Part shown: in pieces, positions 21,641 to 50,625 of the stretch
Numbering within the stretch: position 1 is the first letter of the stretch
Layout of the letters: each line of letters starts with the position of its first letter
From: Solirubrobacter phytolaccae
Lineage (GTDB): Bacteria; Actinomycetota; Thermoleophilia; Solirubrobacterales; Solirubrobacteraceae
Direction of reading: 5' to 3'
Assembly: GCF_027587195.1 (NCBI RefSeq)
Contig: NZ_JAPDDP010000053.1
Location: forward strand, 1-51,415
Length of the DNA: 51,415 nucleotides
Notes under the pieces: model-generated
Seen by the model: the letters and a program-made list of their open reading frames with translations, nothing else
Database searches by the model: none
What the model was told of the DNA's origin: nothing
Made by a program: the position numbers and the translations under genes

Positions 21641-21657
21641 TCACCCCGAGGGGATGA
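21641..21657. promoter_or_regulatory. dyad a (TCACCC-CGAGG-GGATGA), GH13/AI-2E divergent promoter
   Basis: Member of the ten-site dyad family described in the findings. On the plus side the hexamer CATCGT (21681-21686) lies 23 nt from the dyad and the GTG at 21694 follows 7 nt later. On the minus side TAGGTT (21610-21615, read on the minus strand) lies 25 nt away. The right half extends to GGGGATGAGG, which equals the known E. coli MalT box. Confidence 0.75.
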
Positions 21658-21693
21658 GGCGGTATCGCCCGCCGGGCCAGCATCGTGCGACAC

Positions 21694-22830
21694 GTGCGGC
21701 CACAGCGCGTCGAGATCGTGATCGGGGTCAAGACCCTCACGACCATCCTCGTCTTCGGCCTGCTGGTCGTCCTGGCGATCCTGTCGCTCGGCACGCTGCT
21801 GTCGATCTTCCTCGCGGCGGTGCTGGCGTTCGGACTCGACCCCGTGGTGACACGGCTCGTGCAGCGCGGCTGGGGGCGCGGAAAGGCCGCGCTGCTGGTG
21901 TTCGCGGGCCTGTTCGCGTCGGTGTTCACGCTCGTGCTGGTGACCGTCGGCCCCGTGTGGAACCAGATCGAGGAGTTCCTGCGCGCGCTGCCGGAGATGT
22001 GGGAGGACCTGCAGGCGACCGACTGGTTCGCGGACGTCTCGAGCACGGCGGGCTTCGACGACAAGGTGCGCGACTGGTTCGCGGACATCGCGAAGGAGCT
22101 CCCGGACGCGGCGACCGCGCTGCTCGGCGCCGCCGGCGGCGTCTTCGGCTCGGTGCTGAGCCTCGTGACGCTGACCTTCCTGTCGCTGTTCCTGCTGATG
22201 GAGCGCCCGCAGATCACGAGCTGGCTGTTCGGGTTCGCGCCGCCCGAGGCCGAGCAGCGCTGGAGCCCGGTGGTCGAGGAGTCGATCCGCGCGATCTCCT
22301 CCTCGCTGCTGGGCAACCTCGCGATCAGCCTCGTCGCGGGCACGATCGCCGGCGTCTCGGCCTGGCTGCTCGGCCTGCCGTTCCCGGTCGTGCTGGCCGT
22401 CATCACCGGCCTGCTGGACCTGATCCCGCAGGTCGGCGCGACGGTCGCGGCGGTGATCCTCGTCGCCGTCGCGCTCACCGTCGGCACCGGCGAGGCGGTG
22501 ATCATGCTGGTGATCCAGCTGATCTACCAGCAGGTCGAGAACTACATCGTCTACCCGATCGTCTACCGGCGGGCGGTGGAGCTGACGGCGTTCACCACGA
22601 TCGTGGCCGTGCTGATCGCCTCTTCGCTGCTGGGGATCGTCGGCGCGATCCTGGCCGTGCCGTTCGCGGCCGTGATCAAGATCCTGATCCGCGAGGCGAG
22701 CGCGCCACGCCGCAGACGGATGGACGCGCTACGTGACGGCCCCAGCGTCACGCAGAGCGGTGACGTCGTCGATGCCCCAGTCGGCAAGGACGGCGTCGGT
22801 GTCGGCGCCGGGCTCGCTCGGGGGACCTGA
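21694..22830 (+). CDS. AI-2E-family transporter (PerM/UPF0118-type permease)
   Basis: The 378-residue membrane protein has the family layout: two N-terminal helices, a soluble stretch (VWNQIEEFLRALPEMWEDLQ), a further helix pair, and the signature region GLLDLIPQVGATVAAVILVAVALTVG with QQVENYIVYPIVYRR and a final IVGAILAVPFAAVIKI. Members export small molecules or ions; the AI-2 link holds for few of them. GTG 21694 is preferred to GTG 21685 because it keeps the spacing to the dyad. The last 34 codons overlap the end of the convergent CoA-transferase gene and look like unselected read-through (DVVDAPVGKDGVGVGAGLARGT-like tail). Confidence 0.9.
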   Translation: MRPQRVEIVIGVKTLTTILVFGLLVVLAILSLGTLLSIFLAAVLAFGLDPVVTRLVQRGWGRGKAALLVFAGLFASVFTLVLVTVGPVWNQIEEFLRALPEMWEDLQATDWFADVSSTAGFDDKVRDWFADIAKELPDAATALLGAAGGVFGSVLSLVTLTFLSLFLLMERPQITSWLFGFAPPEAEQRWSPVVEESIRAISSSLLGNLAISLVAGTIAGVSAWLLGLPFPVVLAVITGLLDLIPQVGATVAAVILVAVALTVGTGEAVIMLVIQLIYQQVENYIVYPIVYRRAVELTAFTTIVAVLIASSLLGIVGAILAVPFAAVIKILIREASAPRRRRMDALRDGPSVTQSGDVVDAPVGKDGVGVGAGLARGT

Positions 22831-23862
22831 GACCGCCGCGGGCGTGCGCGAGAAGCGCGGCGCGGGCGCCGGCTGGACCTTCCCGTCGACCGTCACGAAG
22901 GCCTCGCGCGCGACGTTGTGCGGATGCTCGGCGGCCTCGGTCAGGCCGAGCACGGGCGTGACGCACGCCTCGGCGCCTTCGAGGAGCGCCGCCCACTCGT
23001 CGCGGGTCTTAGTGGCGAAGACCGTCGCGAAGCGCGCCTTGTACTCGGGCCAGCGCGGCTGGTCCCACTGCGGGAACGCGTCCGCGTCGAGCTCGAGCCG
23101 CCGCAGCAGCTCGGCGTAGAACTGCGGCTCGAGCGCGCCCACGGCCATCCACTTGCCGTCGCGCGTCGCGTAGACCTCGTAGAACGGCGCGCCCGAGTCG
23201 AGCAGGTTCGTGCCTGGCGTGTCGTTCCACAGCCCGGCGGCGCGCATGGCGTGGAACATCGTCGCCAGCAGCGCGCTACCCTCGACCATCGCGGCGTCCA
23301 CGACCTGGCCCTGCCCGGACGTGCGCGCCTCAAGCACGGCGCTGACGACGCCGAGCGCGAGCAGCATCCCGCCGCCCCCGAAGTCCGCGACGAGGTTGAG
23401 CGGGATCGGCGGCTTCTCGCCGGTCCGGCCCATCGCGCCGAGCACGCCCGCGATCGAGAGGTAGTTCAGGTCGTGCCCGGCGACGGCGCTCAGCGGCCCG
23501 TCCTGGCCGTACCCGGTCATGCGGCCGTAGACGAGCTTCGGGTTGCGGGCGAGCACGTCGTCGGGGCCGAGGCCCAGCCGCTCCATCACGCCCGGCCGGA
23601 AGCCCTCGATCAGCGCGTCGGCGCGTTCGCTCAGCCGCAGGATCAGCTCGCGCCCGCCGCCGCTCTTGAGGTTCACCGCCGCCGACCGCCGCCCGCGGTG
23701 CATGAAGTTCCACGCGCCCTCGCCGAGCGGATTGCCCGCCCCGCCCGCGCGGTCGATGCGGATCACGTCCGCGCCCAGGTCGGCGAGCAGCATCGCCGCG
23801 AACGGGCCCGGCCCGATGCTCGCGATCTCGATCACCTTGACGCCGTGCAGAGGTCCACTCAC
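22729..23862 (-). CDS. CaiB/BaiF CoA-transferase family protein (alpha-methylacyl-CoA racemase-like)
   Basis: The 377-residue protein has the family III CoA-transferase pattern: GVKVIEIASIGPGPFAAMLLADLGADVIRID, RSAAVNLKSGGG, FRPGVMERLGLGPDDV, YGQDGPLSAVAGHDLNYLSIAGVLG, LVADFGGGGMLLALGV, and VVDAAMVEGSALLA. The GHDLNY His and the ADFGGGG Asp correspond to the acid/base pair known in alpha-methylacyl-CoA racemase, and the length suits that enzyme. It would epimerise 2-methyl branched acyl-CoAs before beta-oxidation. The start is GTG 23862. It overlaps the AI-2E gene end by 102 bp. The 136-bp upstream space is shared with SulP and contains dyad b, but its own promoter is not obvious. Confidence 0.9.
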   Translation of the reverse strand: MSGPLHGVKVIEIASIGPGPFAAMLLADLGADVIRIDRAGGAGNPLGEGAWNFMHRGRRSAAVNLKSGGGRELILRLSERADALIEGFRPGVMERLGLGPDDVLARNPKLVYGRMTGYGQDGPLSAVAGHDLNYLSIAGVLGAMGRTGEKPPIPLNLVADFGGGGMLLALGVVSAVLEARTSGQGQVVDAAMVEGSALLATMFHAMRAAGLWNDTPGTNLLDSGAPFYEVYATRDGKWMAVGALEPQFYAELLRRLELDADAFPQWDQPRWPEYKARFATVFATKTRDEWAALLEGAEACVTPVLGLTEAAEHPHNVAREAFVTVDGKVQPAPAPRFSRTPAAVSGPPSEPGADTDAVLADWGIDDVTALRDAGAVT

Positions 23863-23946
23863 GGGCGAACCATCCGGGCAGCCGCTGACGCGGCGCCATC
23901 GGGGGTCGCTTTGATCATCGCTTCGCGGATGCTCACGCCCGCATTC

Positions 23947-23963
23947 TCACCCACGCGAGGCGA
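23947..23963. promoter_or_regulatory. dyad b (TCACCC-ACGCG-AGGCGA), promoter of the first SulP gene
   Basis: The plus side shows the full module: dyad, 23 nt, CACCAT (23987-23992), 6 nt, ATG 23999. This predicts a leaderless transcript. One base of the right half deviates (A for G). The divergent CoA-transferase start lies 84 bp away and does not fit the spacing, so control there is doubtful. Confidence 0.75.
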
Positions 23964-23998
23964 AGAGGCGTACGCCCGCGGCCGCGCACCATCCGCGG

Positions 23999-25429
23999 AT
24001 GCGCAAGGACGCCCTCGCGGGCGTGGCGACGGCGGCGGTCGTGATCCCGCAGTCGATGGCCTACGCGACGATCGCGGGGCTGCCGGTGGAGGTCGGCCTC
24101 TACACGGCGCTCGTGCCGCTGCTCGTCTACGCGCTGCTCGGCACCTCGCGGGCGCTGTCGGTCTCCACCACCTCCACCCTCGCCGCGCTCACCGGCGCCG
24201 CGGTCGCCACCGTCCCGCCCGATCAGGCGATGGCGGCGACCACGACCCTGGCCCTGCTCGCCGGCGGGCTGCTGCTCGCCGCGGGCGTCCTCAGGCTCGG
24301 CTTCCTCGCCGACTTCATCAGCCACCCCGTGCTCGCGGGCTTCAAGGCGGGCACGGGGCTGCTGATCGCGGCGGGCCAGCTCGGCAAGGTGCTCGGCGTT
24401 GAGCAGACGGGCGACAGCTTCTTCGCGAAGACGCGCTCCGCCCTCAGCCACCTCGGCGACATCAGCTGGCCGACCGCCGCGCTCGCCGCCGCCACGGTCG
24501 CGGGCCTGTTCGCGCTCAAGCGGACGAAGATCCCGGGCGCGCTGGTCGCGGTCGGCGCCGGCATCGTGGTCGGCGCGGCCGGGCTGCTGGACGTTGCGCT
24601 CACCGGCACCGTCCCCGGCGGCCTGCCCACGCCCGCCGCGCCCGACCTCGGGCTGATCGGCCCGCTGCTCCCCGCCGCCGCGGGCATCGCGCTGATGAGC
24701 TTCGTCGAGTCGATCGCCGCCGGACGCGCGATCGCGCACTCCGACGAGCCGGAGCCGAACGCCGACCGCGAGCTGATCGCGCTCGGCGCCGCCAACTTCG
24801 CCGGCGGCGTCTTCCGCAGCCTCCCGGCCGGCGGCGGGCTGTCGCAGACCGCGGTCAACGACACCGCCGAGACCAAGCGCGCCGGAGCGCTGACCGCGCT
24901 CGTCACGCTCGCCACGCTGCTGTTCCTCACGAGCGTGTTCGCCGACCTCCCGCAGGCGACGCTCGGCGCGCTCGTGCTCGTCTCCGCCGTCGGCCTGATC
25001 CAGCTCGAGCCGTTCCGTCAGATCGGCGAGATCCATCGCCGCGGCGTCGCCCTCGGGCTGCTGACGATGCTGGGCGTCCTCACGCTCGGCGTGCTCCAGG
25101 GCGTGCTCGTCGGCGTGCTGGCGAGCATGCTCAGCCTCGTCCACGCGCTCAACCACCCGCAGGTCACGCGGCTGGAGACCGGCGAGATCAAGGTCGTCGG
25201 CCCGCTCTACTTCGCGAACGTCCAGCGTGTGAAGCGACGCGTGCTGGAGCTCGACCCGGAGCCGGTGCTCGACATGTCCGCCGTGCATGGCATCGACGTC
25301 ACCGCCGCGCTCGTGCTGGAGGAGCTCGCGCCGCGCATGCAGGGCCTGAACCCCCAGCCGCGCGAGCTCCTCCGCCGCGTTCAGTCGCGCGCCAACGCGG
25401 CCGCCAACTCGCGCTCGACGTCCAAGTAG
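23999..25429 (+). CDS. SulP-family anion transporter with STAS domain (1 of 3)
   Basis: The 476-residue protein has the SulP signature near the N-terminus (AAVVIPQSMAYATIAGLPVEVGLYTALVPLLVYALLGTSR), about 10-12 membrane helices, the central motif LSQTAVNDTAETK and a short C-terminal STAS domain (about residues 395-470; GPLYFANVQRVKRR, VLDMSAVHGIDVTAALVLEEL). SulP proteins move sulfate, bicarbonate or other anions. The ATG follows a -10-like hexamer by 6 nt, without a Shine-Dalgarno site. Its end overlaps sulfatase 1 by 49 bp tail-to-tail. Location next to sulfatases favours sulfate, but this is inference. Confidence 0.92.
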   Translation: MRKDALAGVATAAVVIPQSMAYATIAGLPVEVGLYTALVPLLVYALLGTSRALSVSTTSTLAALTGAAVATVPPDQAMAATTTLALLAGGLLLAAGVLRLGFLADFISHPVLAGFKAGTGLLIAAGQLGKVLGVEQTGDSFFAKTRSALSHLGDISWPTAALAAATVAGLFALKRTKIPGALVAVGAGIVVGAAGLLDVALTGTVPGGLPTPAAPDLGLIGPLLPAAAGIALMSFVESIAAGRAIAHSDEPEPNADRELIALGAANFAGGVFRSLPAGGGLSQTAVNDTAETKRAGALTALVTLATLLFLTSVFADLPQATLGALVLVSAVGLIQLEPFRQIGEIHRRGVALGLLTMLGVLTLGVLQGVLVGVLASMLSLVHALNHPQVTRLETGEIKVVGPLYFANVQRVKRRVLELDPEPVLDMSAVHGIDVTAALVLEELAPRMQGLNPQPRELLRRVQSRANAAANSRSTSK

Positions 25430-27708
25430 ACGTCGTCGCCGACGTTGACCTCGACCTCGAGGATGCGGCCACCGCTGAAGGCGAAGCCGGCCGGATACTC
25501 CTGGCTCACGGGGTCGCTGGAGTCGCGCCCGATCGTGAGCCCCTCACCGCACAGCGCGAAGTGCCCGGGCTGCGTCTTCCACTCGCTCTCGGCGACGACC
25601 TCCTCGTCGATGTAGAGCTTGGCCACGCCGAGCGTCTCGTGGTGGTCGCCATGGGACGCCTTCTCGAACTCCACGCCGACCACGTGCCGGCCGGCCGCGA
25701 GCTCCTGCCCGGAGACGAGCTGCTGCTCCGGCGGGATGCCGATGAAGTTGTACGCGTACCAGAGCTTGTGGTCCTTGATGAACAGCGAATGGCCGCCGAA
25801 GCGCGCGCCCTGGGCGAAGATCACGCCCTCCGCCCCGCCGTTGCCACCGATCTCGACCTCGGCGAGGATCTTGTACGAGCGCCCACGCGTGTTCGCGGCC
25901 ACGAACTCCGGCACCTCGGTCGTGCCCGGGTAGTAGCGCCACACGCCGCCCGGCGGGATCATGGCCTCGGGCATCACGGCCACGAGCTCGGCGAGCGTGC
26001 GGTCGTCGAGCGGGAGCACGTCGTACTTGCCGGCCTCGACGAACCACAGGTCCACCAGCTGCTTGACCTTCTCGGGATGCTCGGCCGCGAGGTCGCGCGC
26101 CTCCGCGCGGTCGACGTCGGTGTTGAAGAGCTGCCAGGTCTCGTCGTCGAAACGGCCCGCGCCGAGGTTCGGGCCGCGCTCGGCCACGACCTTCCAGCCC
26201 TCGTGCCACAGGGCCCGGGTGCCGAACATCTCGTAGTACTGGATCCGCTTCATGGTCGCGGCGGCGGCGTCGTCGAACGAGTACCGCATCGACACGCCGG
26301 GCAACGCCGACTGCTCGTAGCCCTGGACCACGTCCGGGAACTCGACGCCGCAGCACTCGAGGATCGTCGGGACGATGTCCGTGCAGTGGTGGTACTGGTC
26401 GCGCACCTCGCCGCGGGCCTTGATCCCCGCCGGCCAGGAGATCACGAGCGGGTCGCTGACGCCGCCCTGGTACGTGTAGCGCTTGAACATCTTGAACGGC
26501 GTCGAGAACGCGACCGCCCAGCCGGTCGGGTAGTGGTTGTACGTCGACGGCGAGCCGAGCTCGTCGAGCTGCGTGAGGTTCTGCGCGATGTCGTCCGGAT
26601 AGGCGTTGAAGACCTTGTTCTCGTTCACCGACCCGTCCGGTGACCCCTCGCCCGAGGCGCCGTTGTCGGCGGCGTAGACGATCAACGTGTTCTCGAGCTG
26701 GCCGGACGCCTCGAGGTAGTCGACGATCCGCCCGACCTGCGCGTCGGTGTACTCGCTGAAGCCCGCGTACACCTCGGCCATGCGGCTGAACAGCCGCTGC
26801 TCGTCGGCGGACAGCGTGTCCCACGGGCGCACCTGATCCGTCGCGATCATCTGCCCCTCGGGCAGCGGGTTGATCGGCGTCAGCTCCGTGCCCTCCGGCA
26901 GGATCCCGCGCTCGACCATCCGCGGCAGCACCCAGTCGCGGTAGGCCTCGTAGCCGTCGTCGAACTGCCCCTTGTACTTGTCGATGTACTCCTGCGGCGC
27001 GTGGTGCGGGGCGTGGTTGGCGCCGGGGCAGAACCACATGTACCAGGGCTTGTCGGGGTGCGACTGCTTGGAGTCGCGGATGAACCCGAGTGCCTTGTCC
27101 GCGAGGTCCTTGGAGAGGTGGTAGCCCTCTTCCGGGGTCGCCGGCTGCTCGACGTAGTGGTTGTCCTCGGCGAGCGTCGGATACCACTGGTTGGTCTCAC
27201 CGCCGAGGAAGCCGTAGAAGCGATCGAACCCGCGCGCGAGCGGCCAGTGCTTCTTGGAGCCGCCCATCGCCCAGTCCTCGAGCGGCACGTTGTGGTTCTT
27301 GCCGACCCAGAACGTGTTCCAGCCGTTCTCCCGCAGCACCTCGGCCATCGTCGCGTTCTCCATCGGGATCATCCCGGTGTGCCCCGGGAAGCCCTGCGCG
27401 CCCTCGGCGATCTGCGCGAAGCCGTTCTGATGGTGGTTGCGCCCGGTCAGGAAGCACGAGCGCGTCGGCGAGCACAGCGCGGTCGTGTGCCACTGGCTGT
27501 AGGTGAGCCCGTTCGCGGCCAGGCGGTCGAGCGTGGGCATGTTGATGCGCCCGCCGTACGCCGACCAGGCCGCGAGCCCGGTGTCGTCATAGAGCACGAC
27601 GAGCACGTTGGGCGCGCCGGCCGGCGCGGGCTCGTCCCGGAACGCGTCCCAATCCATGACGGAGTCGCGGACATCGAGGTTGATGACACCCTTGAACGGC
27701 CTGGCCAC
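25381..27708 (-). CDS. type I sulfatase (arylsulfatase-like), 1 of 2
   Basis: The 775-residue protein has the sulfatase motif CSPTRS, with Cys79 as the residue converted to formylglycine, a second signature GKNHNVPLEDW, metal ligands Asp41/Asp42 (LYDDTG) and DN in YAADNGASGEGS. The C-terminal 200 residues form a jelly-roll-like domain (GGAEGVIFAQGARFGGHSLFIKDHKLWYAYNF). No signal peptide is visible, so it is probably cytoplasmic or exported in a folded form. It removes sulfate from an aryl or alkyl sulfate ester. It needs a formylglycine-generating enzyme, which is not in this window. Start is GTG 27708 with AAGGGA upstream. Confidence 0.93.
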   Translation of the reverse strand: MARPFKGVINLDVRDSVMDWDAFRDEPAPAGAPNVLVVLYDDTGLAAWSAYGGRINMPTLDRLAANGLTYSQWHTTALCSPTRSCFLTGRNHHQNGFAQIAEGAQGFPGHTGMIPMENATMAEVLRENGWNTFWVGKNHNVPLEDWAMGGSKKHWPLARGFDRFYGFLGGETNQWYPTLAEDNHYVEQPATPEEGYHLSKDLADKALGFIRDSKQSHPDKPWYMWFCPGANHAPHHAPQEYIDKYKGQFDDGYEAYRDWVLPRMVERGILPEGTELTPINPLPEGQMIATDQVRPWDTLSADEQRLFSRMAEVYAGFSEYTDAQVGRIVDYLEASGQLENTLIVYAADNGASGEGSPDGSVNENKVFNAYPDDIAQNLTQLDELGSPSTYNHYPTGWAVAFSTPFKMFKRYTYQGGVSDPLVISWPAGIKARGEVRDQYHHCTDIVPTILECCGVEFPDVVQGYEQSALPGVSMRYSFDDAAAATMKRIQYYEMFGTRALWHEGWKVVAERGPNLGAGRFDDETWQLFNTDVDRAEARDLAAEHPEKVKQLVDLWFVEAGKYDVLPLDDRTLAELVAVMPEAMIPPGGVWRYYPGTTEVPEFVAANTRGRSYKILAEVEIGGNGGAEGVIFAQGARFGGHSLFIKDHKLWYAYNFIGIPPEQQLVSGQELAAGRHVVGVEFEKASHGDHHETLGVAKLYIDEEVVAESEWKTQPGHFALCGEGLTIGRDSSDPVSQEYPAGFAFSGGRILEVEVNVGDDVYLDVERELAAALARD

Positions 27709-27772
27709 GATGCGTTTTCCCTTCGTCTCTTGATGTCCACTGCGGTCTATCGAGCGTCGAGGTGGGCGGGGG

Positions 27773-27789
27773 TCACCCGCGTGGAGTGA
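27773..27789. promoter_or_regulatory. dyad c (TCACCC-GCGTG-GAGTGA), promoter of sulfatase 1
   Basis: The dyad lies between the sulfatase start (27708) and the stop of the upstream gene (27794). On the minus strand TAGACC (27744-27749) is 23 nt away; it lacks the final T. The start codon is 35 nt beyond that hexamer and has its own Shine-Dalgarno site, so this transcript would have a leader. It is the one dyad not placed in a divergent space. Confidence 0.65.
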
Positions 27790-27793
27790 CCCG

Positions 27794-29998
27794 TCATCCG
27801 GTGAAGCGCGGCGCGGTCGGGGCGGACACGATCACCGTCGCCTGGGCGAGGTTGTTCGCCAGGTCGGGGTCGTCGCTGGCGCTGGACACGGCGACCTGGT
27901 TGACGCGGCGCCCGGGATCGCCCGCGACGGCGTCGACGGTGATCACGGCCTGCCCGCCGGGCCGCAACGTCCCGAGCGAGCAGTTCGCCGGTCGCGTCCC
28001 GGTGCAGGTGCCACGCGTCGAGGACAGGCGCAGCTCAGCGGTGTTCGGCGGTTGCAGCTCGCTGACCACCACCTGCAACGCCGGGTCCGGGCCGCGGTTG
28101 ACGACCGTGATCGTGTACTGGACGGCCTGCCCGGGGCGTGCCGACCGCGGTGCGGCGCGCTTGGTCACCGCCAGGTCCGCGTTCGGGCCGTCGGCGGGGA
28201 GCACCTGGCCCTGGTCCGGTGTCGGAATCGGCGGGACCGGCGCCGGCGATGGCGACGTCGTCGGGACCGGCGATGGTGGCGCCGGGGTCGGGGTCGGCGT
28301 CGGCGTGGGTTCCGGGGGCGTCGGTCCCACGGTGATGAAGCGGTTGATGAACGTGCAGTCCTTGCGCGGGTCCGCGCGGGTCAACCGCACCTGCGTGCGG
28401 CCCTGCGCGTTCGGCACCGGGCTCCCGTCGCACAGCACCGCTTCGAGGCGCCAGAAGCCCTCGTCCGTCACTTGGCGCCCCAGCTCGCGGATGTCGTAGA
28501 CGCCGAGCGGCAGCGCGGTCGTGTCGTCGCCCGTCGCCGTGACGGGGACGACCTGGCGCTGCACCCGGGCGCGCTGACGGTGGGTCACCGTGTTGTCGCC
28601 CCGCGGCGAGATCTGGAAGAACGCCGTGCCGATGTTGCCGATCGCGACCTTGCGGATGCGCAGCGCCCCGGACGGGATGAACTCGTTGGTGAACTCGCAC
28701 GCGACGCCTTCGCCCGCGCCCACCCTGAAGCGCACGGGCTCCAGCGGGTCGAACGCGCGGCCGTCGCACGACGCCTTCGCCGGCCGCCAGCGGCCCTCGG
28801 CGGTCCGTGCGGGTAGGCGTTCGGTCACCGTGTAGGCGCCGGGAGATCCCGCGAGCGGCGCGCCGGCCACCGGGACGCCGATCCGGGTCGTCGCGATCGT
28901 CTGGCTCCCGCTGTCAGGCCCGCTGATGTCGAAGCGGAAGCTGCCGACGCCGCCGAGCGTGCGCTTGACCAGCTGCAGCCCCGCGGCGGGCGGGGTCAGC
29001 CGATTCGTGTACGTGCACGTGACCGTGTCCAGCGCGCCCAACGTCACCCGCGCCTCACCCGAGGCCACCGACGTCACGGACGTGCTCGCGCCGGTCGCCG
29101 ACACACACGCGAGGCCGCTCAGCGACCAGCCCACCGGGACCTCCTCGGTGAACGTCCACGGCTGGTTCGGATCAGCGGCCCGGTAGAACGTCTCTTCGGC
29201 GGGCCGGCCGTCGGAGGCCGACAGCGTGAAGTGATGGTCCTCCGTGTAGGAGATGTTGCCGGTGAAGCCGAAGTCCTGGGAAGCGGTGGCGTCGGGGTCG
29301 TCGACGACCTTGCGGACGATGATCGTCCCGCTCGTCGGCGGCGGCTCGACGTAGTACGCGTAGCAGAGGACGTGCCTGACGCCGTTGGGGTAGGCGATGA
29401 ACTCGACGTTGTCGCCGTTGAGGTTGTCGACCGCGCACCGCAGCGCCGCGAAGCCGTACTGCTGCGGGTAGACCTTGTCGAGCACCGGGTCGTCGACCGC
29501 GCCGCCCTGCAGCCACAACGATTGGTACGCCTGTGAGCGCTGCGCCTGGTCCCCCGTCAACGCCACCGTGACGGCGCCCGGGAGATCGACCCCGACCGGC
29601 GCGCCGACGCGGTCGAGCAGCGGCGTCGAGGCCTGCGTGAGGATCGGCGTGGCGTACGGGTTGGTGACCTTCGAGAGCGACCCCCAGGTCCCGTTGACGG
29701 CCTGCGTCTGGTAGCCGGTGCCCAGCACGAAACGCCAGTTCACGAGCGGGCGGCACCGCGGCTGGCCCTCGATCTCCTTGGCGGCGGAGATCAGCTCGCC
29801 GTTCACGTAGAGCGTGTCCGCGCCGAGGTCCTTCAGGCTCTCCTGGATGTCGTTGCGCGCGAGGTTGGCGCGCACCGCGTCGTAGCTCGGGCACGCCCGC
29901 GCGGCGTAGGTCACCAGCCGCTGCTGCTGCGCGCCGGCGGCCGGCGTGAGCACCGCGGCGCCCACGATCGCGACGGCCAGGACTCTCAATGCACCCAT
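27794..29998 (-). CDS. large secreted surface protein with prealbumin-like repeats and a DUF11 domain
   Basis: The 734-residue protein starts at ATG 29998 with a signal peptide (AAVLTPAAGAQQ). About 200 residues follow with two Cys-rich regions (YAARACPSYDAVRANL, ALRCAVDNLNGDNVEF). Then come three SpaA/prealbumin-like repeats, each beginning like GTIIVRKVVDDPDA, GLQLVKRTLGGVG, GALRIRKVAIGNIG and ending near CTYTN, CEFTNEF, CTFINRF. A Pro/Thr linker (PTPTPTPTPAPP) leads to a C-terminal DUF11 domain (DLAVTKRAAPRSARPGQAVQYTITVVNRGPDPALQ). No sortase motif or membrane anchor is visible. Such proteins serve as surface or matrix structures. It overlaps the L,D-transpeptidase gene by 13 bp. Confidence 0.85.
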   Translation of the reverse strand: MGALRVLAVAIVGAAVLTPAAGAQQQRLVTYAARACPSYDAVRANLARNDIQESLKDLGADTLYVNGELISAAKEIEGQPRCRPLVNWRFVLGTGYQTQAVNGTWGSLSKVTNPYATPILTQASTPLLDRVGAPVGVDLPGAVTVALTGDQAQRSQAYQSLWLQGGAVDDPVLDKVYPQQYGFAALRCAVDNLNGDNVEFIAYPNGVRHVLCYAYYVEPPPTSGTIIVRKVVDDPDATASQDFGFTGNISYTEDHHFTLSASDGRPAEETFYRAADPNQPWTFTEEVPVGWSLSGLACVSATGASTSVTSVASGEARVTLGALDTVTCTYTNRLTPPAAGLQLVKRTLGGVGSFRFDISGPDSGSQTIATTRIGVPVAGAPLAGSPGAYTVTERLPARTAEGRWRPAKASCDGRAFDPLEPVRFRVGAGEGVACEFTNEFIPSGALRIRKVAIGNIGTAFFQISPRGDNTVTHRQRARVQRQVVPVTATGDDTTALPLGVYDIRELGRQVTDEGFWRLEAVLCDGSPVPNAQGRTQVRLTRADPRKDCTFINRFITVGPTPPEPTPTPTPTPAPPSPVPTTSPSPAPVPPIPTPDQGQVLPADGPNADLAVTKRAAPRSARPGQAVQYTITVVNRGPDPALQVVVSELQPPNTAELRLSSTRGTCTGTRPANCSLGTLRPGGQAVITVDAVAGDPGRRVNQVAVSSASDDPDLANNLAQATVIVSAPTAPRFTG

Positions 29999-30675: not shown

Positions 30676-30714
30676 CGCCCGGCGAAGTCTCCGTGGTGGC
30701 GGGGTGAGTGAAGA

Positions 30715-30731
30715 TCACCCGCCGGGGGCGA
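30715..30731. promoter_or_regulatory. dyad d (TCACCC-GCCGG-GGGCGA), YkuD/DUF389 divergent promoter
   Basis: On the plus side CACGAT (30755-30760) lies 23 nt from the dyad and GTG 30768 follows 7 nt later. On the minus side GAGACT (30686-30691, minus-strand reading) lies 23 nt away and the YkuD ATG follows 10 nt later. Both directions fit the family layout. Confidence 0.8.
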
Positions 30732-30767
30732 CGCCCGGTCCACTCCGACCCCGACACGATGCAAGCC

Positions 30768-34450: not shown

Positions 34451-34485
34451 GCCGACAGGCTCCCGCCGGACCGGGCGACTGCTCA

Positions 34486-34502
34486 TCACCCCGTGCGGGC
34501 GA
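34486..34502. promoter_or_regulatory. dyad e (TCACCC-CGTGC-GGGCGA), sulfatase 2/ZIP-regulator divergent promoter
   Basis: On the minus side GAGCCT (34457-34462) lies 23 nt from the dyad and ATG 34450 follows 6 nt later, the standard layout. The plus side differs: TAGCGT (34509-34514) lies only 6 nt from the dyad and 7 nt before ATG 34522, so the TCACCC half would occupy the -35 position with a 17-nt spacer. Confidence 0.78.
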
Positions 34503-35216: not shown

Positions 35217-37289
35217 GTGCTCGATCTTCCCCTTATTGAGAGCAAGATCGCGCGCCCCCTCCTGCGGACGGACGTGCTCGAGCGACCGCGCGTGACCGCC
35301 GCGCTCGAACGGGCGGCCAAGGCGGGCGTCGTGCTCGTCTCGGCGCCGACCGGTTACGGCAAGACGGTGGCCGTGAGCGCGTGGCTGCGCAACCGGCCCG
35401 CGGCCTGGGTCTCCGTCGACGAGGACGACAACGACCCGCTGCGGCTCTGGCGCTACGCCGCGGCCGCGCTCGGCGCGGACCTGGCGTCGGGCCCGCTCGA
35501 GGCGAACATCGACGCGCTGGCCGAGCTCGACGTGCCGCTCGTGCTCGAAGACGTCCACGTCCTCACGGACCGGCGCTGTCTGGCGACGCTGGCTCACGCC
35601 ACGCGGGTGATGCCGCGGCTCGTGCTGATCTCCCGCCGCGATCCACCGATCCGCATCGCCCGGCTACGCGTGCAGGGCGGGCTCGGGGAGGTGCGCGCGG
35701 AGACGCTGGCGTTCAGCACCGAGGAAGCGGCCTACGTGCTCGGCGGCGGGGACGCGACGGCGATCACCGAGCGCACCGAGGGCTGGCCGGCCGCGATCTA
35801 CCTCGTGGCGCTCTGGCTGCGCAACGGCGGCAACCCGAACACGCTGCCGCGCCACCACCTCTCCGAGCTCGTCACCACCGAGGTGCTCGCCGGCCTGGAG
35901 GCCGATCTGCACGACTTCCTCGTGCGCACGTCGGTGCTGCCGCGCCTGTCGGCGCCGCTGTGCGACCACGTCCTCGAGATCGACGATGCCGCGCAGTGCC
36001 TGCAGCGCCTGCTGGACGCCAACCTGTTCCTGGTCGCGCTCGACGACGACGCCGGCTGGTTCCGCTACCACCCGCTGTTCCGCGAGCTCGTGCGGCGCGA
36101 GCTGCCCGACCCGGCGCCGCTGCACCGGCGCGCCGCGGCCTGGTACGACGCGCACGGCCATCCGGAGGAGGCCGTCGAGCACGCCCGCGCGGGCGGCGAC
36201 CACGCGCTCGCCGCCGACCTCGTCGACCGCCATCACATCGCGCTGACGCGTACCGGCCGCACGGCGACGCTGCTGCGCTGGGTGCGTGAGCTGCCCGAGT
36301 CCGAGCTGGCCGACCGGCCCGTGACGCTCCTGGCCGCCGCGGCCGCGGCGGGCGCGACCGGCCGCCCGCCGTTCGAGGTCGAGCGACTGCTGGCCGCTTC
36401 CCAGCGCGCTCGCGAGGCGCGTCCGGACGCGTGGACGCCGTTCCACGAGACGATGGCCGCGATCACGGCGGCGCTGGCGCGCGACGAGAACGTGCCCGCC
36501 GCGCTCGCCGCCGCCGAGTCCGCGGTCGAGCACGCCGACGACGACCTGGCCGTCGGGGCGCTGGCGACGCTCGCGGCGATGCAGCTCGACACCGGCGACG
36601 AGCCGCTCGCGCGCCGCACCTGCGCTCGCGCGCTCATGCACCCCACGGCCGAGCGGCGCCCGCACGGCTTCGCGAGCGCGCTGTCCACGCTGGCGATCAC
36701 CGAGGTGGCGGCGGGCCGGCTGCCGGCGGCCCGCGAGCACGCCGACCAGGCGCTCGCGGTCGTGCGCTCGATGGGGAACATCGACAGCCGGATCGACGCG
36801 CGCGCCCACGCGGCGGACGCGATCGTGGCCCGCGCCGAGGGCCGGCTCGGCCGCGCGGTCCGCGCCGCCGAGGCCGCGCTCAAGCTGCACCCGCGCGGCG
36901 CGTTCCGCGCCCGCATCCTGCTCGAGCTGGCGCAGATCCGGGCGGCCCGCGGCGAGCTGGGCCGCGCGGAGACGACGCTGGACGAAGCGCGCACGCTGAT
37001 CGCCGACTGCGAGGACGCGGGCGGCATGCCGGCGCTGGCCGAGCGGGTGGCCGGCAGTCTCGGCGCCGGGACGCTCGGCGCCCCCGCCGAGCCGCTCTCC
37101 CCCGCCGAGGAGCTGATCCTGCTGCAGCTTCCGACCTCTCGCAGCAACACCGAGATCGCCGCCGACCTGTTCCTCTCCCCGAACACCGTCAAGACGCACC
37201 TGAAGGCGATCTACCGCAAGCTGGGCGCCCACTCCCGGACCGAGGCCGTGCACCGCGCGACAGCCCTCGGCCTGCTAAAGAATTCGTAA
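35217..37289 (+). CDS. MalT-like LuxR-family regulator (LAL type), regulator 1
   Basis: The 690-residue protein has a STAND NTPase module (Walker A APTGYGKT at 43-50; Walker B LVLED near 108-112), a winged region, TPR-like helical repeats (about 330-610), and a C-terminal LuxR HTH (LSPAEELILLQLPTSRSNTEIAADLFLSPNTVKTHLKAIYRKLG). Such proteins assemble on an inducer plus ATP and activate transcription near -35. It has no own promoter but is coupled to the ZIP gene behind dyad e, which would allow positive feedback. It is the best local candidate for reading the dyads. Start is GTG 35217. Confidence 0.92.
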   Translation: MLDLPLIESKIARPLLRTDVLERPRVTAALERAAKAGVVLVSAPTGYGKTVAVSAWLRNRPAAWVSVDEDDNDPLRLWRYAAAALGADLASGPLEANIDALAELDVPLVLEDVHVLTDRRCLATLAHATRVMPRLVLISRRDPPIRIARLRVQGGLGEVRAETLAFSTEEAAYVLGGGDATAITERTEGWPAAIYLVALWLRNGGNPNTLPRHHLSELVTTEVLAGLEADLHDFLVRTSVLPRLSAPLCDHVLEIDDAAQCLQRLLDANLFLVALDDDAGWFRYHPLFRELVRRELPDPAPLHRRAAAWYDAHGHPEEAVEHARAGGDHALAADLVDRHHIALTRTGRTATLLRWVRELPESELADRPVTLLAAAAAAGATGRPPFEVERLLAASQRAREARPDAWTPFHETMAAITAALARDENVPAALAAAESAVEHADDDLAVGALATLAAMQLDTGDEPLARRTCARALMHPTAERRPHGFASALSTLAITEVAAGRLPAAREHADQALAVVRSMGNIDSRIDARAHAADAIVARAEGRLGRAVRAAEAALKLHPRGAFRARILLELAQIRAARGELGRAETTLDEARTLIADCEDAGGMPALAERVAGSLGAGTLGAPAEPLSPAEELILLQLPTSRSNTEIAADLFLSPNTVKTHLKAIYRKLGAHSRTEAVHRATALGLLKNS

Positions 37290-37765: not shown

Positions 37766-37802
37766 GGCGCGACAGGCTCGCGCGCGGCGGGATGAGCCCG
37801 GA

Positions 37803-37819
37803 TCACCCACCGCGGGCGA
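37803..37819. promoter_or_regulatory. dyad f (TCACCC-ACCGC-GGGCGA), PH/DUF7144 divergent promoter
   Basis: Plus side: TAGCTT (37843-37848) at 23 nt, ATG 37855 after 6 nt. Minus side: GAGCCT (37774-37779) at 23 nt, ATG 37765 after 8 nt. This is the clearest symmetric example; the dyad is centred about 44 bp before each predicted transcript start. Confidence 0.85.
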
Positions 37820-40594: not shown

Positions 40595-40630
40595 GGCCCC
40601 GATCCTCCGTCCGGGGTGGGTGGCCCGGCC

Positions 40631-40647
40631 TCACCCACCGTGGGCGA
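40631..40647. promoter_or_regulatory. dyad g (TCACCC-ACCGT-GGGCGA), DUF1269-SulP/GAP divergent promoter
   Basis: Minus side: GAGGAT (40602-40607) at 23 nt, ATG 40594 after 7 nt. Plus side: GACGAT (40671-40676) at 23 nt, ATG 40689 after 12 nt. The sequence differs from dyad f in one centre base only, and the flanking bases (GGGCGATGCCG) are also shared with f. Confidence 0.83.
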
Positions 40648-42981: not shown

Positions 42982-42987
42982 GGCGGC

Positions 42988-43305: not shown

Positions 43306-43341
43306 GGCGCGCATCCTCGGCACGGCACGGATGAGGGCGCT

Positions 43342-43358
43342 TCATCTCGCATGGGTGA
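43342..43358. promoter_or_regulatory. dyad h (TCATCT-CGCAT-GGGTGA), SHOCT-SulP/GAP divergent promoter
   Basis: Minus side: GAGGAT (43313-43318) at 23 nt, ATG 43305 after 7 nt. Plus side: CACGAT (43382-43387) at 23 nt, ATG 43396 after 8 nt. The outer symmetry is longer than in the other sites (GCTTCA and TGAAGC). Confidence 0.8.
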
Positions 43359-43395
43359 AGCGATCCCACCCGTGCGCCGCGCACGATGCCGCGTC

Positions 43396-45231: not shown

Positions 45232-45267
45232 GCCGTCCACCCTCCCGGCCACACGGGTGACGCGTGG

Positions 45268-45284
45268 TCATCCCGGCGGAATGA
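45268..45284. promoter_or_regulatory. dyad i (TCATCC-CGGCG-GAATGA), coiled-coil membrane protein/DUF7144 divergent promoter
   Basis: Both sides carry the same hexamer GAGGGT at exactly 23 nt: 45239-45244 on the minus strand (GTG 45231 after 7 nt) and 45308-45313 on the plus strand (ATG 45320 after 6 nt). The dyad itself is the most divergent of the set but keeps TCA and TGA. Confidence 0.78.
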
Positions 45285-45319
45285 TCCGCGCTCACCCGCG
45301 CGCGGCGGAGGGTGGCGGT

Positions 45320-46745: not shown

Positions 46746-46894
46746 AGAATTCCGGCGCACCCGCTGCGGCACATCCGCGGCGCCTCGCGCCACCCGCGAA
46801 GCTCAACGGGCTACCGCCCGCCTGCGCCCGCGTGCGACCCGAGGCATCCACGGCTGCACCACATCGGGCACACCGTCGATTCTCCACCGAGGCG
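46746..46894. other. 149-bp convergent intergenic space
   Basis: No gene, no dyad and no clear promoter is visible between the flippase-like gene and regulator 2. The only structure is a 12-bp perfect palindrome, GGCGCTAGCGCC (46891-46902), which overlaps the TAG stop of regulator 2 and could help end one or both transcripts. Confidence 0.4.
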
Positions 46895-49543
46895 CTAGCG
46901 CCGGGAGGAAAGGAGCCGTAGGTCGCGGGCGCGCTCGACGGCCTCGCGCCGGCGGGCGACGTCGAGCTTGCGGTAGATGCTGCGCAGGTGCGTCTTGACC
47001 GTGTTGGTCGTGACGAACAGCTCGGCCGCGATCTCGCGGTTGGAGAGCGCGGTCGGCAGGTAGCGCAGGATCGCCTGCTCGCGCTCGGACAGCGGCTCGA
47101 GCAACGGCGCGACGTGACGGGTCGCGGGCGCGCGGTCGGCGAACGCGTCCAGCAGCTCGCCGACGATCGCGCGGTGCGCGGTGCCGGCGCGGATCTGGTG
47201 GCGCAGGAGCTCCTCCATCGGCCGGCCGAGCTCCAGGAACGGCCAGCGGTGGCGGTTGGCCTCGGCCAGCGTGAGGGCCTGCTCGAGCATCCGCGTGGCC
47301 TTCAGCGGCTCGCCGTTCTCGGCGAGCGCGATCGCGAGCAGCGCGCGGGTCTCCACCGGCGTGACCGCGTGCACCGCGGGATGGCTCAGCGTCGCCTCCA
47401 GCAGCTCGACGGCGTCCGCGGGCTCACCAACCGCCAGCGCCAGGCGCGCGGCCGCGGAGCCCACCGCCATCCACGGCTCGTCCTCGACGAGCTTGAGTGT
47501 CGCGGCGGCTTCCTCCAGCTCGCCCGCCTGGATCAGCAGCCGCGCGCGCATCGCGGCGACCGAGGCCAGCTCGTGCTCGAGCCGCGGACCGCGATGGCGG
47601 TTCAGCGCCTCGTAGTCCTCGAGCGCGCGCAACCCGTCGCGGGGCGCGCCAGCCGCGCCGTGCATGCGTGCGTCCAGGTGCGAGATCACGAAGTCCAGGT
47701 GCCGGCGCCGCAGCTGCCGCGCGACGACCTTCGCGAGCTCCAGGTGCTCGGCGGCCTGCTGGGGCTGCAGGTCGTAGAAGGCGTGCAGCGCGAGCGCGGT
47801 GTGCGCGCACGCCGTCTGCGGCAGCTGCGACCAGCCGCGGCGCTCCGCCAGCTCGATCGCCTGGCGCCCGTGCCCGTGCTCGTCGGCCGGGCCGTACATC
47901 ATCACGTCGTGCAGGGCGAGGTAGCTGAGCGCCGACACCGCCACATAGTCGAGCCGGTGGGCGCGAGCGGAGGCGACCGCGCGGCGCAGCTCCTCCCCCG
48001 CGCGCGGCAGGTCGTGCGCCCACAGCGCGGTCTCGCCGAGCATCGCGTGCACGAGCGCCTCACGGGCGCCGTCATCGTCGCCCGTGTGGGTGGCGGCCTC
48101 GGCGAGGAGGTCGTCGGCGGCGCGCAGCGCGGCGTCGAAGTCGCCCTCCAGGCGGGCGGTCCCGAGCCCGGCGAGCGCCATCGCCTCCAGGTAGCGGCGC
48201 CGGCGCGGCTCGGGGAGGTCGGCGTGCTCGGCGTGCGCGATGTGCAGCTCGGCCGAGTCCGTGTCGCCCACGTCGAGCGCCGCGCACGCGAGCGCGGCGG
48301 ACAGCTCGGCGTCGCGCTCCAGGCGCTCGGGCGGGAGCTTGGCGAGCAGCCTGCGGACCGCGGCCGCGTCGCCGTGGACGTAGAGGTCGAACCAATGGCC
48401 GGCGACGACCTCCACCGCGAGGTCGTGATCCCCGGCCAGCACCGCGTGCTCGAGCGCGTCGACACAGCCGCCGCGCTCGGCGTACCAGCGCGCAGCGCGG
48501 GCGTGCAGCTTCGGCAGCTCGGCGTGCAGCTCACGCTGGGCGCGCGTGCGCAGCAGCTTCGCGAACAGCCGGTGGTAGCGGAACCACTCGCGGTGACCGT
48601 CGACGCCCAGGACGAACCCGTTGGTGCGCTCCAGCGTGGCGAGCGTGTCCGCGCCGTGACCGTCGTTGGTGAGCGCGTCCGCGAGGCTGCCGCAGATGCG
48701 GTCCACGAGGCTCGTGCGCAGCAGGAACGCGCGCAGCTTCGGCGGCTGGCGGTCCAGTACCTCGGCCAGCAGGTAGTCGCCGACGACGCGGTCGTCGCCC
48801 GCGAAATCCGCCACGAACGTCTCCGGGTCCTCGCGCCCCTGCAGGCTCAGCGCCGCGAGCCGCAGGCCCGCGCCCCAGCCCTCGGTGCGCCCGTGCAGCG
48901 CGGTGATCAGCTCCTCGTGCAGCTCGAGGCCGTGCGCCTGCAGCAGCTCCCGCGACTCGTCGAGCGTGAACGCCAGGTCGGTCGCGCGGATCTCCGCCAG
49001 CCGGCCGCGCACGCGCAGCACGTGCAGCGGCAACGGCGGGTCGCTGCGCGCGGTCATCACCAGCCGCACCGTGTCGGGCGTGTGCAGCAGCAGGAACGAC
49101 AGCTGCGTCAGGCACTCGCGGCTGCGCAGCACGTGCACGTCGTCGAGCACGAGCACCACGGGCTCCGGGAGCGTCGCGAGCGCGTTGACCAGCAGCGGCA
49201 TGAACGCGTCCCGGCTCTCGCGCACGGGCGCGGCCAGGCCCGCCAGCGCGGAGTCGCTCGGCACGGCGCCGGCCAGCTCCAGCGCGGTCAGGACCGCGTC
49301 CCACAGGCGGCCGGGCTCGTCGTCGGTCGGCTCGAGCGTCACCCACGCCGCGCGCTCCACGCTCGCCGCGACGAGCGCCGTCTTCCCGCTCCCGGCGGGG
49401 GCGCACACGAGGGTCACGGGCTCGCTGAGCCCACTGCGTAGACGCTCGGTCAGCCGCGGGCGATCCACCATGCCGAACGGCAGCGGCGGGACCGCGAACT
49501 GCGTGACCAGAGCCGGTGCCCTCCTGACGGCCGGTGAGCTCAA
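46895..49543 (-). CDS. MalT-like LuxR-family regulator (LAL type), regulator 2
   Basis: The 882-residue protein has the STAND NTPase (Walker A APAGSGKT at 48-55; Walker B VLVLDDVHVL near residue 130), a winged region with REWFRYHRLFAKLLR, long TPR-like helical repeats and a C-terminal LuxR HTH (LSEREQAILRYLPTALSNREIAAELFVTTNTVKTHLRSIYRKLD). It differs from regulator 1 in length and in the repeats, so it senses another signal. The TTG start has AAGGAG 6 nt upstream. Its promoter (49598-49626) is sigma70-like and lacks the dyad. Confidence 0.92.
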   Translation of the reverse strand: MSSPAVRRAPALVTQFAVPPLPFGMVDRPRLTERLRSGLSEPVTLVCAPAGSGKTALVAASVERAAWVTLEPTDDEPGRLWDAVLTALELAGAVPSDSALAGLAAPVRESRDAFMPLLVNALATLPEPVVLVLDDVHVLRSRECLTQLSFLLLHTPDTVRLVMTARSDPPLPLHVLRVRGRLAEIRATDLAFTLDESRELLQAHGLELHEELITALHGRTEGWGAGLRLAALSLQGREDPETFVADFAGDDRVVGDYLLAEVLDRQPPKLRAFLLRTSLVDRICGSLADALTNDGHGADTLATLERTNGFVLGVDGHREWFRYHRLFAKLLRTRAQRELHAELPKLHARAARWYAERGGCVDALEHAVLAGDHDLAVEVVAGHWFDLYVHGDAAAVRRLLAKLPPERLERDAELSAALACAALDVGDTDSAELHIAHAEHADLPEPRRRRYLEAMALAGLGTARLEGDFDAALRAADDLLAEAATHTGDDDGAREALVHAMLGETALWAHDLPRAGEELRRAVASARAHRLDYVAVSALSYLALHDVMMYGPADEHGHGRQAIELAERRGWSQLPQTACAHTALALHAFYDLQPQQAAEHLELAKVVARQLRRRHLDFVISHLDARMHGAAGAPRDGLRALEDYEALNRHRGPRLEHELASVAAMRARLLIQAGELEEAAATLKLVEDEPWMAVGSAAARLALAVGEPADAVELLEATLSHPAVHAVTPVETRALLAIALAENGEPLKATRMLEQALTLAEANRHRWPFLELGRPMEELLRHQIRAGTAHRAIVGELLDAFADRAPATRHVAPLLEPLSEREQAILRYLPTALSNREIAAELFVTTNTVKTHLRSIYRKLDVARRREAVERARDLRLLSSRR

Positions 49544-49584
49544 ACGTCACTCCTTCTACACGCGGACTTGCCCCCATGCGGCGA

Positions 49585-49599
49585 GTCCTTGCCAAGGAC
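49585..49599. promoter_or_regulatory. palindrome over the transcript start of regulator 2
   Basis: GTCCTTG-C-CAAGGAC is a perfect 7-bp inverted repeat around one base. It overlaps the end of the -10 box and the expected start point of the regulator 2 promoter, so a repressor or the regulator itself could bind here. Confidence 0.5.
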
Positions 49600-49626
49600 C
49601 CTATGTGAGCGTGCAAGGTTTGTCGA
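49598..49626 (-). promoter_or_regulatory. sigma70-like promoter of regulator 2
   Basis: Read on the minus strand, TCGACA (49621-49626) and TAGGGT (49598-49603) are separated by 17 nt. This is close to the TTGACA/TANNNT consensus. The predicted start near 49591 leaves a leader of about 48 nt with a good Shine-Dalgarno site. Confidence 0.55.
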
Positions 49627-49648
49627 GTTTTGTGAAACCCACCAGATA

Positions 49649-49666
49649 CCGGTGCGCGTGCACCGG
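49649..49666. terminator. hairpin downstream of the 49692-49904 gene
   Basis: CCGGTGC and GCACCGG pair perfectly across a 4-nt loop. The hairpin lies 25 bp beyond the stop of the upstream minus-strand gene and before the regulator 2 promoter, a suitable place for a terminator. There is no T-tract. Confidence 0.45.
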
Positions 49667-49691
49667 GAAACGGGCCGTTGGCGCCCGGGCC

Positions 49692-49904
49692 TCAGCCGCC
49701 GCCCTTGCGCGGCAATTGGCGGACCTCGACGAGCTCCAGGCCCAGCTCCTGCAGGTGCTCGAGGATCCCGTGCAGGCCCTCCTGATCCGTCACCGGCCCG
49801 CGCAGGACCGTCTCCACCGGCTCGGTCTCGGCTTCCAGCCCGAGAGCGTCGGCGAGGTGCTCGCCCACGCGGCCACGTACGCGGATCTCGTAGTTGAGGC
49901 TCAT
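49692..49904 (-). CDS. small conserved hypothetical protein
   Basis: The 70-residue protein reads YEIRVRGRVGEHLADALGLEAETEPVETVLRGPVTDQEGLHGILEHLQELGLELVEVRQLP. I recognise it as a common small actinobacterial protein with a beta-alpha-beta look and no assigned function; the DQEGLHGIL helix is the most constant part. It lies 24 bp after the B12-domain-like gene and is probably on the same transcript. Confidence 0.75.
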   Translation of the reverse strand: MSLNYEIRVRGRVGEHLADALGLEAETEPVETVLRGPVTDQEGLHGILEHLQELGLELVEVRQLPRKGGG

Positions 49905-49928
49905 ACCGCGAAGGCAGCATGTTGGGCC

Positions 49929-50549
49929 TCAGGTGGGTGAAGGTTCGTCGCTCCGCCGGGATGACTGCCGTCGCGCGAGGCCGGCGATGCGCGCGGGGGC
50001 GGTGACGGCCTCGGCGTCGAGCGCGACGCCGTCCGTCGCCTTGGCGAGCGCCGCCCGCGCGGTGCCGATGACCACGAGCGGGCAGGGCAGCGCGCGCAGC
50101 TCGGCGCCGTCGCGGCGGGTCAGCGCGCCGCGCTCGGCAGCGAGCACGACCGCGGCGGTGTCCTGACGGCGGACGGCCTCGGCGAGCGCGTCGACCGGCG
50201 TCGCGGCGCCCAGGTAGGCGATCCGGCAGTGGCGGTCGGCGAGCGCGATGCCGATCGCGATCAGCTCGAGCACGTCGTCGTCGCTGGGGGCGCAGGCGAG
50301 CACGACGAGCGGCCCGTGGACGCGCTCCCAGCCCTGGGCCTGGGCGAGCAGGCGCAGCTCGAGCAGGGAGCGGGCGAAGCGCAGCTCGGCGGCGTCGTCG
50401 AGCCGCATGAGCAGGGGCCGGCCGACGTCGCGCACGAACGCCTCGGGCGGCACGGACGCGAACGCCTCGTCGAGCAGGTTGTGCGCCGATTGCAACCGGA
50501 AGCGATGGACCGCGCGCTCGAGGCGCACGACCAGAGGCTCACTTTCCAA
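49929..50549 (-). CDS. cobalamin-binding-domain-like protein without HTH (MerR/CarH-related)
   Basis: The protein of about 206 residues has a helical bundle (LVVRLERAVHRFRLQSAHNLLDEAFASVPPEAFVRDVGRPLLMRL) and a Rossmann-like domain (GPLVVLACAPSDDDVLELIAIGIALADRHCRIAYLGAATPVDALAEAVRRQDTAAVVLAA), as in CarH-type photoreceptors. The N-terminal MerR HTH is missing, and the usual His of the E-x-H cobalamin motif is Asp here (APSDDDVLEL), so cobalamin binding is doubtful. The start is uncertain: TTG 50549 is preferred, GTG 50528 is possible; ATG 50636 would put dyad j inside the gene. Confidence 0.7.
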   Translation of the reverse strand: MESEPLVVRLERAVHRFRLQSAHNLLDEAFASVPPEAFVRDVGRPLLMRLDDAAELRFARSLLELRLLAQAQGWERVHGPLVVLACAPSDDDVLELIAIGIALADRHCRIAYLGAATPVDALAEAVRRQDTAAVVLAAERGALTRRDGAELRALPCPLVVIGTARAALAKATDGVALDAEAVTAPARIAGLARRQSSRRSDEPSPT

Positions 50550-50572
50550 GATCCCTGCCGATCCGTTGTGGA

Positions 50573-50592
50573 TTCCAGCAACTTTGCTGGAA
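50573..50592. promoter_or_regulatory. perfect 20-bp palindrome-like operator upstream of the B12-domain-like gene
   Basis: TTCCAGCAA-CT-TTGCTGGAA is a perfect 9-bp inverted repeat with a 2-nt centre. It overlaps the -10-like hexamer AAAGTT (50580-50585, minus strand) predicted from dyad j, so a repressor bound here would block the minus direction only. Confidence 0.65.
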
Positions 50593-50608
50593 CTCGGGTG
50601 ACCGAGCC

Positions 50609-50625
50609 TCACCCGGTCCGGGTGA
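50609..50625. promoter_or_regulatory. dyad j (TCACCC-GGTCC-GGGTGA), B12-domain-like/USP divergent promoter
   Basis: This is the only site with perfect symmetry in both halves. Plus side: TAGGTT (50649-50654) at 23 nt, ATG 50663 after 8 nt. Minus side: AAAGTT (50580-50585) at 23 nt, with no start codon at leaderless distance, so that transcript has a leader. Confidence 0.82.

Follow-up and report, generated by a model that had tools for sequence, protein, structure and literature searches.

The window analysed here is a stretch of 51,415 nucleotides (nt) from Solirubrobacter phytolaccae (contig NZ_JAPDDP010000053.1, positions 1 to 51,415), in which ten copies of one palindrome, TCAYCC-N5-GGRYGA, lie between positions 21641 and 50625 together with two genes for large ATP-binding regulators of the LuxR family (LAL). 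Judging from the sequence, these palindromes are very probably the operators of MalT-type LAL activators, a kind of signal transduction ATPase with numerous domains (STAND), which are encoded in the same cluster, chiefly the protein of 46895-49543. Each half-site would be one MalT-box-like hexamer, GGRTGA, and an activator answering to an inducer would bind there and raise transcription. The gene-facing box would take the -35 position (about -41 to -36), with a sigma-70-like -10 downstream of it and a start codon at or near +1, and therefore one palindrome could serve two divergent, largely leaderless promoters. In the clusters of this regulator the dyad usually carries one or two additional boxes, each set off by a constant 7 nt. 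Such a three- or four-box array would suit the cooperative loading of a LAL oligomer, since MalT of Escherichia coli multimerizes and binds its boxes cooperatively (according to excerpts of PMC4381067). Site positions, spacing, promoter geometry, conservation and linkage to LAL genes were all computed.

Palindromic sites in the window

All ten dyads lie where a preliminary description of the window had placed them, but only six fit TCAYCC-N5-GGRYGA exactly, and four (23947, 27773, 43342, and 45268) carry one mismatch. Exact matches in the window amount to 8 strand hits against 0.04 expected, a count that 0 of 100 shuffles reached, and up to one mismatch there are 24 strand hits against 2.36 expected. 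Matching with up to two mismatches gave no excess in the window (43 vs. 37 in shuffles) and was dropped. The first 21 kb had been described as free of sites, which is true of exact matches; one match with a single mismatch occurs at 8361. This match and those at 35594 and 45335 all fall within called genes and were set aside as chance.

The gene calls come from our own simple caller and not from a standard tool. They place nine of the ten sites between genes, where the preliminary description had placed all of them. At the tenth, 30715, a called GTG start precedes the site by 7 nt, and an ATG further downstream may be the better start. Divergent placement was borne out for nine sites, the exception being 27773, which is flanked by two minus-strand genes. 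A concentration of sites 35-37 bp before start codons had been suggested for checking, and ten gene starts are indeed located 35-37 nt from a site end.

Box arrays and promoter geometry

The dyad forms the centre of a longer array of alternating boxes, [GGRTGA-N7]-TCAYCC-N5-GGRTGA-[N7-TCAYCC]. With up to one mismatch allowed, a third box is present at eight of the ten window sites, so the single dimer site first proposed is too simple, and three sites (43342, 45268, and 50609) have four boxes; these extra boxes had been missed earlier. The operators of the window are as follows, with distances in nt to the gene starts and gene families from Pfam.

21641-21670: dyad 21641-21657 with a third box (one mismatch) on the right; 36 nt before 21694 (+, AI-2E transporter) and 75 nt before 21565 (-, GH13-like)
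23947-23963: two-box dyad, one mismatch; 35 nt before 23999 (+, SulP)
27773-27789: two-box dyad, one mismatch; 64 nt before 27708 (-, sulfatase); non-divergent
30702-30731: three boxes; flanked by a YkuD gene (-) and a DUF389 gene (+)
34473-34502: three boxes, the third with one mismatch; 35 nt before 34450 (-, sulfatase) and 64 nt before 34567 (+, ZIP, then LAL 35274-37289)
37790-37819: three boxes; 37 nt before 37765 (-, bPH_2) and 35 nt before 37855 (+, DUF7144)
40618-40647: three boxes, the third with one mismatch; 36 nt before 40594 (-, DUF1269) and 41 nt before 40689 (+, SfLAP)
43329-43371: four boxes, one core mismatch, the fourth box with one mismatch; 37 nt before 43396 (+, SfLAP) and 81 nt before 43260 (-, SHOCT)
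45255-45297: four boxes, one core mismatch; 36 nt before 45231 (-) and 35 nt before 45320 (+, DUF7144)
50596-50638: four exact boxes; 37 nt before 50663 (+, Usp) and 80 nt before 50528 (-); heads the gene run reaching LAL regulator 2
49935-49964 (-): an extra, weaker operator-like site, dyad 49948-49964 with one mismatch; inside the end of gene 49929-50528 and 43 nt before the gene 49692-49904 for a protein of 70 amino acids (aa)

The last dyad, which overlaps coding DNA, had also escaped the preliminary description. A site with up to one mismatch is found upstream of the orthologue of the 70-aa gene in all four genus relatives that have one.

The array recurs in a set of 121 non-redundant sites drawn from the window and 40 fetched stretches, with identical regions merged and sites near stretch ends skipped; a site entered the set if it matched exactly or had a single mismatch per strand, which left out 23947. 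An exact GGRTGA stands at offset -13 in 41 of the 242 flanks, where the mean over all offsets, peaks included, is 0.6. With up to one mismatch the count at this offset rises to 64/242, compared with 0-5 at eight other offsets tested. At least one exact extra box accompanies 34 of the 121 sites, and 7 have both. TCAYCC and GGRTGA are separated by N5 in 55 copies (49 intergenic) and by each other spacing from 0 to 25 in 0-2, a count favoured by selection because many stretches were chosen for N5 sites. This does not apply directly to the N7 spacing of GGRTGA and TCAYCC, found in 26 copies (23 intergenic) against 0-2 at other spacings.

Downstream of the box that faces a gene, YANNNT has its maximum at 22-23 nt (51/242 flanks) and ATG at 34-37 nt (72/242 flanks). 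These two peaks put the box near -41 to -36, over the -35 region as for a MalT-type activator, and the start codon at about +1, so the mRNAs from site-bearing promoters would be largely leaderless. The half-sites, GGRTGA and mostly with R as G or A together with T, are near but not identical to the E. coli core GGA(T/G)GA quoted in the excerpts of PMC7567727.

LAL regulators and their linkage to the sites

The two LAL genes of the window are the following.

35274-37289 (+): LAL regulator 1; Pfam GerE; TPR_MalT at 35.6 bits, below the curated cut-off; MalT structure PDB 8bob matched at E 4.3e-33 over residues 82-356
46895-49543 (-): LAL regulator 2; Pfam AAA_22, GerE, and TPR_MalT at 49.3 bits (cut-off 45); MalT structure PDB 8bob matched at E 1.9e-44 over residues 26-423

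Our own caller starts LAL regulator 2 at 49417. The window thus holds the architecture of a MalT-type LAL (STAND) activator, namely a nucleoside triphosphatase domain, MalT-like TPR, and C-terminal GerE. Both genes lie in same-strand runs headed by the operators listed above, and positive autoregulation is therefore predicted. In the stretches fetched from two other genomes (G001 and G003 among our genome handles, in which G000 is the genome of the window), an orthologue of 46895-49543 was found and one of 35274-37289 was not. The third box is kept there at 6/7 sites (G001) and 2/4 sites (G003). LAL regulator 2 is the better candidate because it is this orthologue that is present where third boxes persist, and it is most likely the chief candidate activator. 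A scan of named genomes with LAL 35274-37289 gave six distant relatives, whose loci were also inspected for sites.

Sites also lie close to LAL genes in other genomes. Over 12 genomes, 43 of 147 sites are located within 10 kb of a listed LAL, compared with 2.5 expected, and the excess is seen in each of the 11 LAL-bearing genomes counted, which span several families (P between 3e-8 and 7e-3). The count mixes two site patterns (GGRYGA in six genomes, GGRTGA in six) and two LAL lists, and it leaves out G288, G156, G004, G005, G016, G052, G020, and G035. Ten genomes were picked before the places of their LAL genes were known; G053 and G041 were added after the linkage was seen, and in both the only TPR_MalT match of the genome sits amid sites. 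G000, counted separately, has 6 of 26 sites within 10 kb of a LAL against 0.60 expected, with 10 of its 17 LAL matches listed. LAL genes also stand beside sites beyond those among the matches listed, for example on contig C83 of G000.

Two further loci were noted. Contig C60 of G046, from another family of the order, is a separate case of an array beside a LAL: strict three-box sites at 74236 and 77468 stand on either side of a strong TPR_MalT match (74635-75507), all within 74.2-77.5 kb. On contigs C16, C79, C84, and C98 of G288, four of the five palindromes of the genome share a single sequence, read in one direction or the other, or differ from it only slightly, and these palindromes are possibly part of a repeat.

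Two LAL clades and two forms of operator

By their recognition helices the LALs fall into two sets. Both window LALs belong to a KTH-type group similar to E. coli MalT, and the LAL encoded on contig C83 of G000 belongs to a KTQ-like clade; one KTQ-like member, G005b, carries KSH instead of KTQ. We compared their sites over 18 cluster groups, leaving aside stretches that yielded no LAL as well as L131, which is mixed, and counting contig C153 with the window by gene order in G002. A third box with up to one mismatch occurs at 38/68 sites in KTH-type clusters (25 exact) and at 3/47 in KTQ-like ones (0 exact; Fisher P 1e-8), whereas TGC directly past the outward-facing box occurs at 10/68 KTH-type and 29/47 KTQ-like sites (P 2.5e-7), both P values being too small because sites of one cluster are not independent. 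Within the genomes that have both kinds (G000, G002, G003, and G035), the third box is found at 23/29 KTH-type and 3/24 KTQ-like sites, the former becoming 24/34 when the second KTH-type cluster of G002 is added. However, a simple clade rule does not fit KTH clusters of three distant families, with third boxes at 0/18 sites, or G002b, with 1/5, and clade alone therefore does not decide the array form. We tentatively suggest, with rather less than even confidence, that two operator forms are told apart within the same cells: alternating arrays of three or four boxes (N7/N5/N7) would be the target of this lineage's KTH-type clade, and a plain dyad, often extended to GGRTGATGC, that of the KTQ-like clade. 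Box number and orientation, and not the hexamer, would then separate parallel envelope and transport regulons that recur patchily in Actinomycetota.

Contig C83 of G000 carries a KTQ-type LAL (L058, 12068-14170, +) with its own plain-dyad sites ahead of DUF1269 genes, and on this sequence pattern the locus is a second regulon of the same kind. Contig C153 (L065) holds more array sites in its 1-8 kb (e.g. 3444, 4691, and 7397), and it probably continues the cluster past the right end of the window, since its genes adjoin the window's cluster in G002.

Conservation, spread and target genes

Although the regulon had been called local, the 7.74-Mb genome (169 contigs) contains 26 distinct exact sites, 6 of them in the window, with 40 strand hits against 1 for the reversed control. 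Equal density inside coding regions had been named as grounds for refutation, but 21 of the 26 sites are intergenic by our gene calls, though 92% of the 800 kb examined (window and fetched stretches) is coding; of the five others, 30715 is probably intergenic too. Conservation, the second point on which the preliminary description could have failed, is also seen: over six genomes a site with up to one mismatch precedes the orthologues of 28/35 genes that have a window site and of 3/23 that do not, where orthologues at stretch edges were dropped and the genes of a divergent pair were counted singly despite their common site. The GH13-like gene 19328-21604 behind site 21641 has an orthologue in G002 without a site within 160 bp.

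In a search of 61 genomes (our own and 60 relatives), each strand holds 7-31 matches in the six genus relatives, and G035 has 29/32; the other genomes have fewer, mostly 0-5. Thirty loci were returned, and many of those from site-poor genomes were judged by eye to be chance matches in coding DNA. In a sample of the phylum, the palindrome TCAYCC-N5-GGRTGA occurs in 134 of 296 genomes, mostly in one or two copies, with 0-2 per genome for the reversed control; palindrome-rich genomes include G088 (19), G073 (16), and G110 (10). The strict three-box form is present in 9/299 genomes of the class and in 4/396 of the phylum sample, with zero control matches in either. Beyond the class it is found in G073, G088, and G259.

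Counting genes in same-strand runs, the families behind sites in the 23 cluster groups include DUF1269-like proteins (two sequence clusters, 13 and 10 groups), DUF7144 (12), one LAL cluster (8), SulP (7), and AI-2E (7); SHOCT, Usp, and DUF308 occur in a smaller number of groups. The family of the 70-aa protein 49692-49904 (-), which has no Pfam match at E<=0.001, lies behind or beside operators in 10/23 groups. This target set points to an envelope and transport programme. A stress regulon, as first proposed, was not borne out; the condition in the Actinoplanes counterpart discussed below is maltose. Within the called gene 27794-29998, ARAGORN calls a 90-nt tRNA-Gly with anticodon acc (28204-28293, +), which is probably a false positive.

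Alternative explanations

Several observations weigh against a LAL as the reader of these sites. No site stands directly at the start of either window LAL, and the E. coli mal promoters show same-strand repeats, which we take to be their MalT boxes, unlike the inverted arrangement in the window. In the 12-genome count 104 of 147 sites, and in G000 20 of 26, are more than 10 kb from any LAL among the matches listed. G156 has LAL homologues, none of them near its 2 listed sites (of 8), and G226, the twelfth genome counted, and G288 have sites and no LAL46 homologue at E<=1e-10.

The dyad could instead be bound by an unrelated dimeric regulator encoded elsewhere, the LAL genes being mere members of its regulon, a reading favoured by the distant sites and by those of G226 and G288. 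We regard this as improbable considering the linkage in eleven genomes of several families, the way extra boxes follow LAL clade within this lineage, and the resemblance of the half-site to the MalT box core (GGA(T/G)GA in excerpts of PMC7567727 and PMC9628970). Additionally, deletion and overexpression of malT in Actinoplanes alter transcription of the region with the same motif, as excerpts of the former report state (PMC7567727). It is marginally less probable again that the LALs bind the sites and repress, with an operator over -35 blocking RNA polymerase; some LALs are reported as negative regulators (PMC9628970, in part), but E. coli and Actinoplanes MalT activate from a motif at the same position (PMC7567727, in part). 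The motif lies at about -35 and at a fixed distance from the -10 and might be a promoter element of an alternative sigma factor, which is very unlikely given that it is palindromic, serves divergent genes, and has further upstream boxes at exact spacing, and that the -10 looks sigma-70-like (YANNNT). Activation by MalT-type LALs of the cluster is the reading we carry forward.

Comparison with known systems

The candidate regulators of the window share with E. coli MalT their nature as LAL/STAND activators with a GerE domain, the box core GGA(T/G)GA, and the orientation of the gene-facing box, which reads GGATGA towards malP. They differ in their target genes and in arrangement, with same-strand repeats 13 bp apart at malP, presumably its MalT boxes, where the window has inverted ones at distances of 11 and 13 bp. 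Cooperative binding of several boxes by an oligomer is reported for MalT (PMC4381067, in part), and the arrays suggest the same here from sequence. The Streptomyces LAL SCO6993 belongs to the same protein family, and short inverted repeats are suspected at its targets; a consensus site could not be predicted by its authors (excerpts of PMC9628970).

The closest counterpart, and the reason why the motif cannot be called undescribed, is found in Actinoplanes sp. SE50/110, in which TCATCC-5nt-GGATGA was reported at 17 transcription start sites (TSS) of a 51-gene region (Droste et al., 2020, PMC7567727; here and below from the available part of the article). The 3' end of that motif lies 34.4 +/- 1.0 nt from the TSS, over -35, and a LuxR/LAL MalT was named as activator through deletion and overexpression. 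Two MalT-like genes were noted, and the authors left the function of the region open. The motif and LAL genes in one region, as in Actinoplanes, are found together in the window. The likeness extends to spacing, the predicted TSS distance, the two MalT-like genes, and the many unannotated and transport genes in a region without maltose-metabolism genes. The lineage is another one, the named genes are mostly different (compared with the 10 genes of Table 1), and third or fourth boxes are not described in that part of the article, whereas the present comparison adds a second LAL clade that has an operator form to itself. A literature search that covered subscription papers little gave no motif report besides PMC7567727 among the matches listed. 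The operator thus belongs to a kind that is already in the literature, and we found no published precedent for the array form or the two grammars.

A regulon that had no known regulator thus gains a named activator family and a candidate protein. Co-regulation also offers a handle on the DUF1269-like, DUF7144, and 70-aa families because Pfam assigns them no function. Box number may prove to be a code that assigns each promoter to its LAL paralogue. Overall, a motif published for Micromonosporaceae is extended to other lineages of Actinomycetota.

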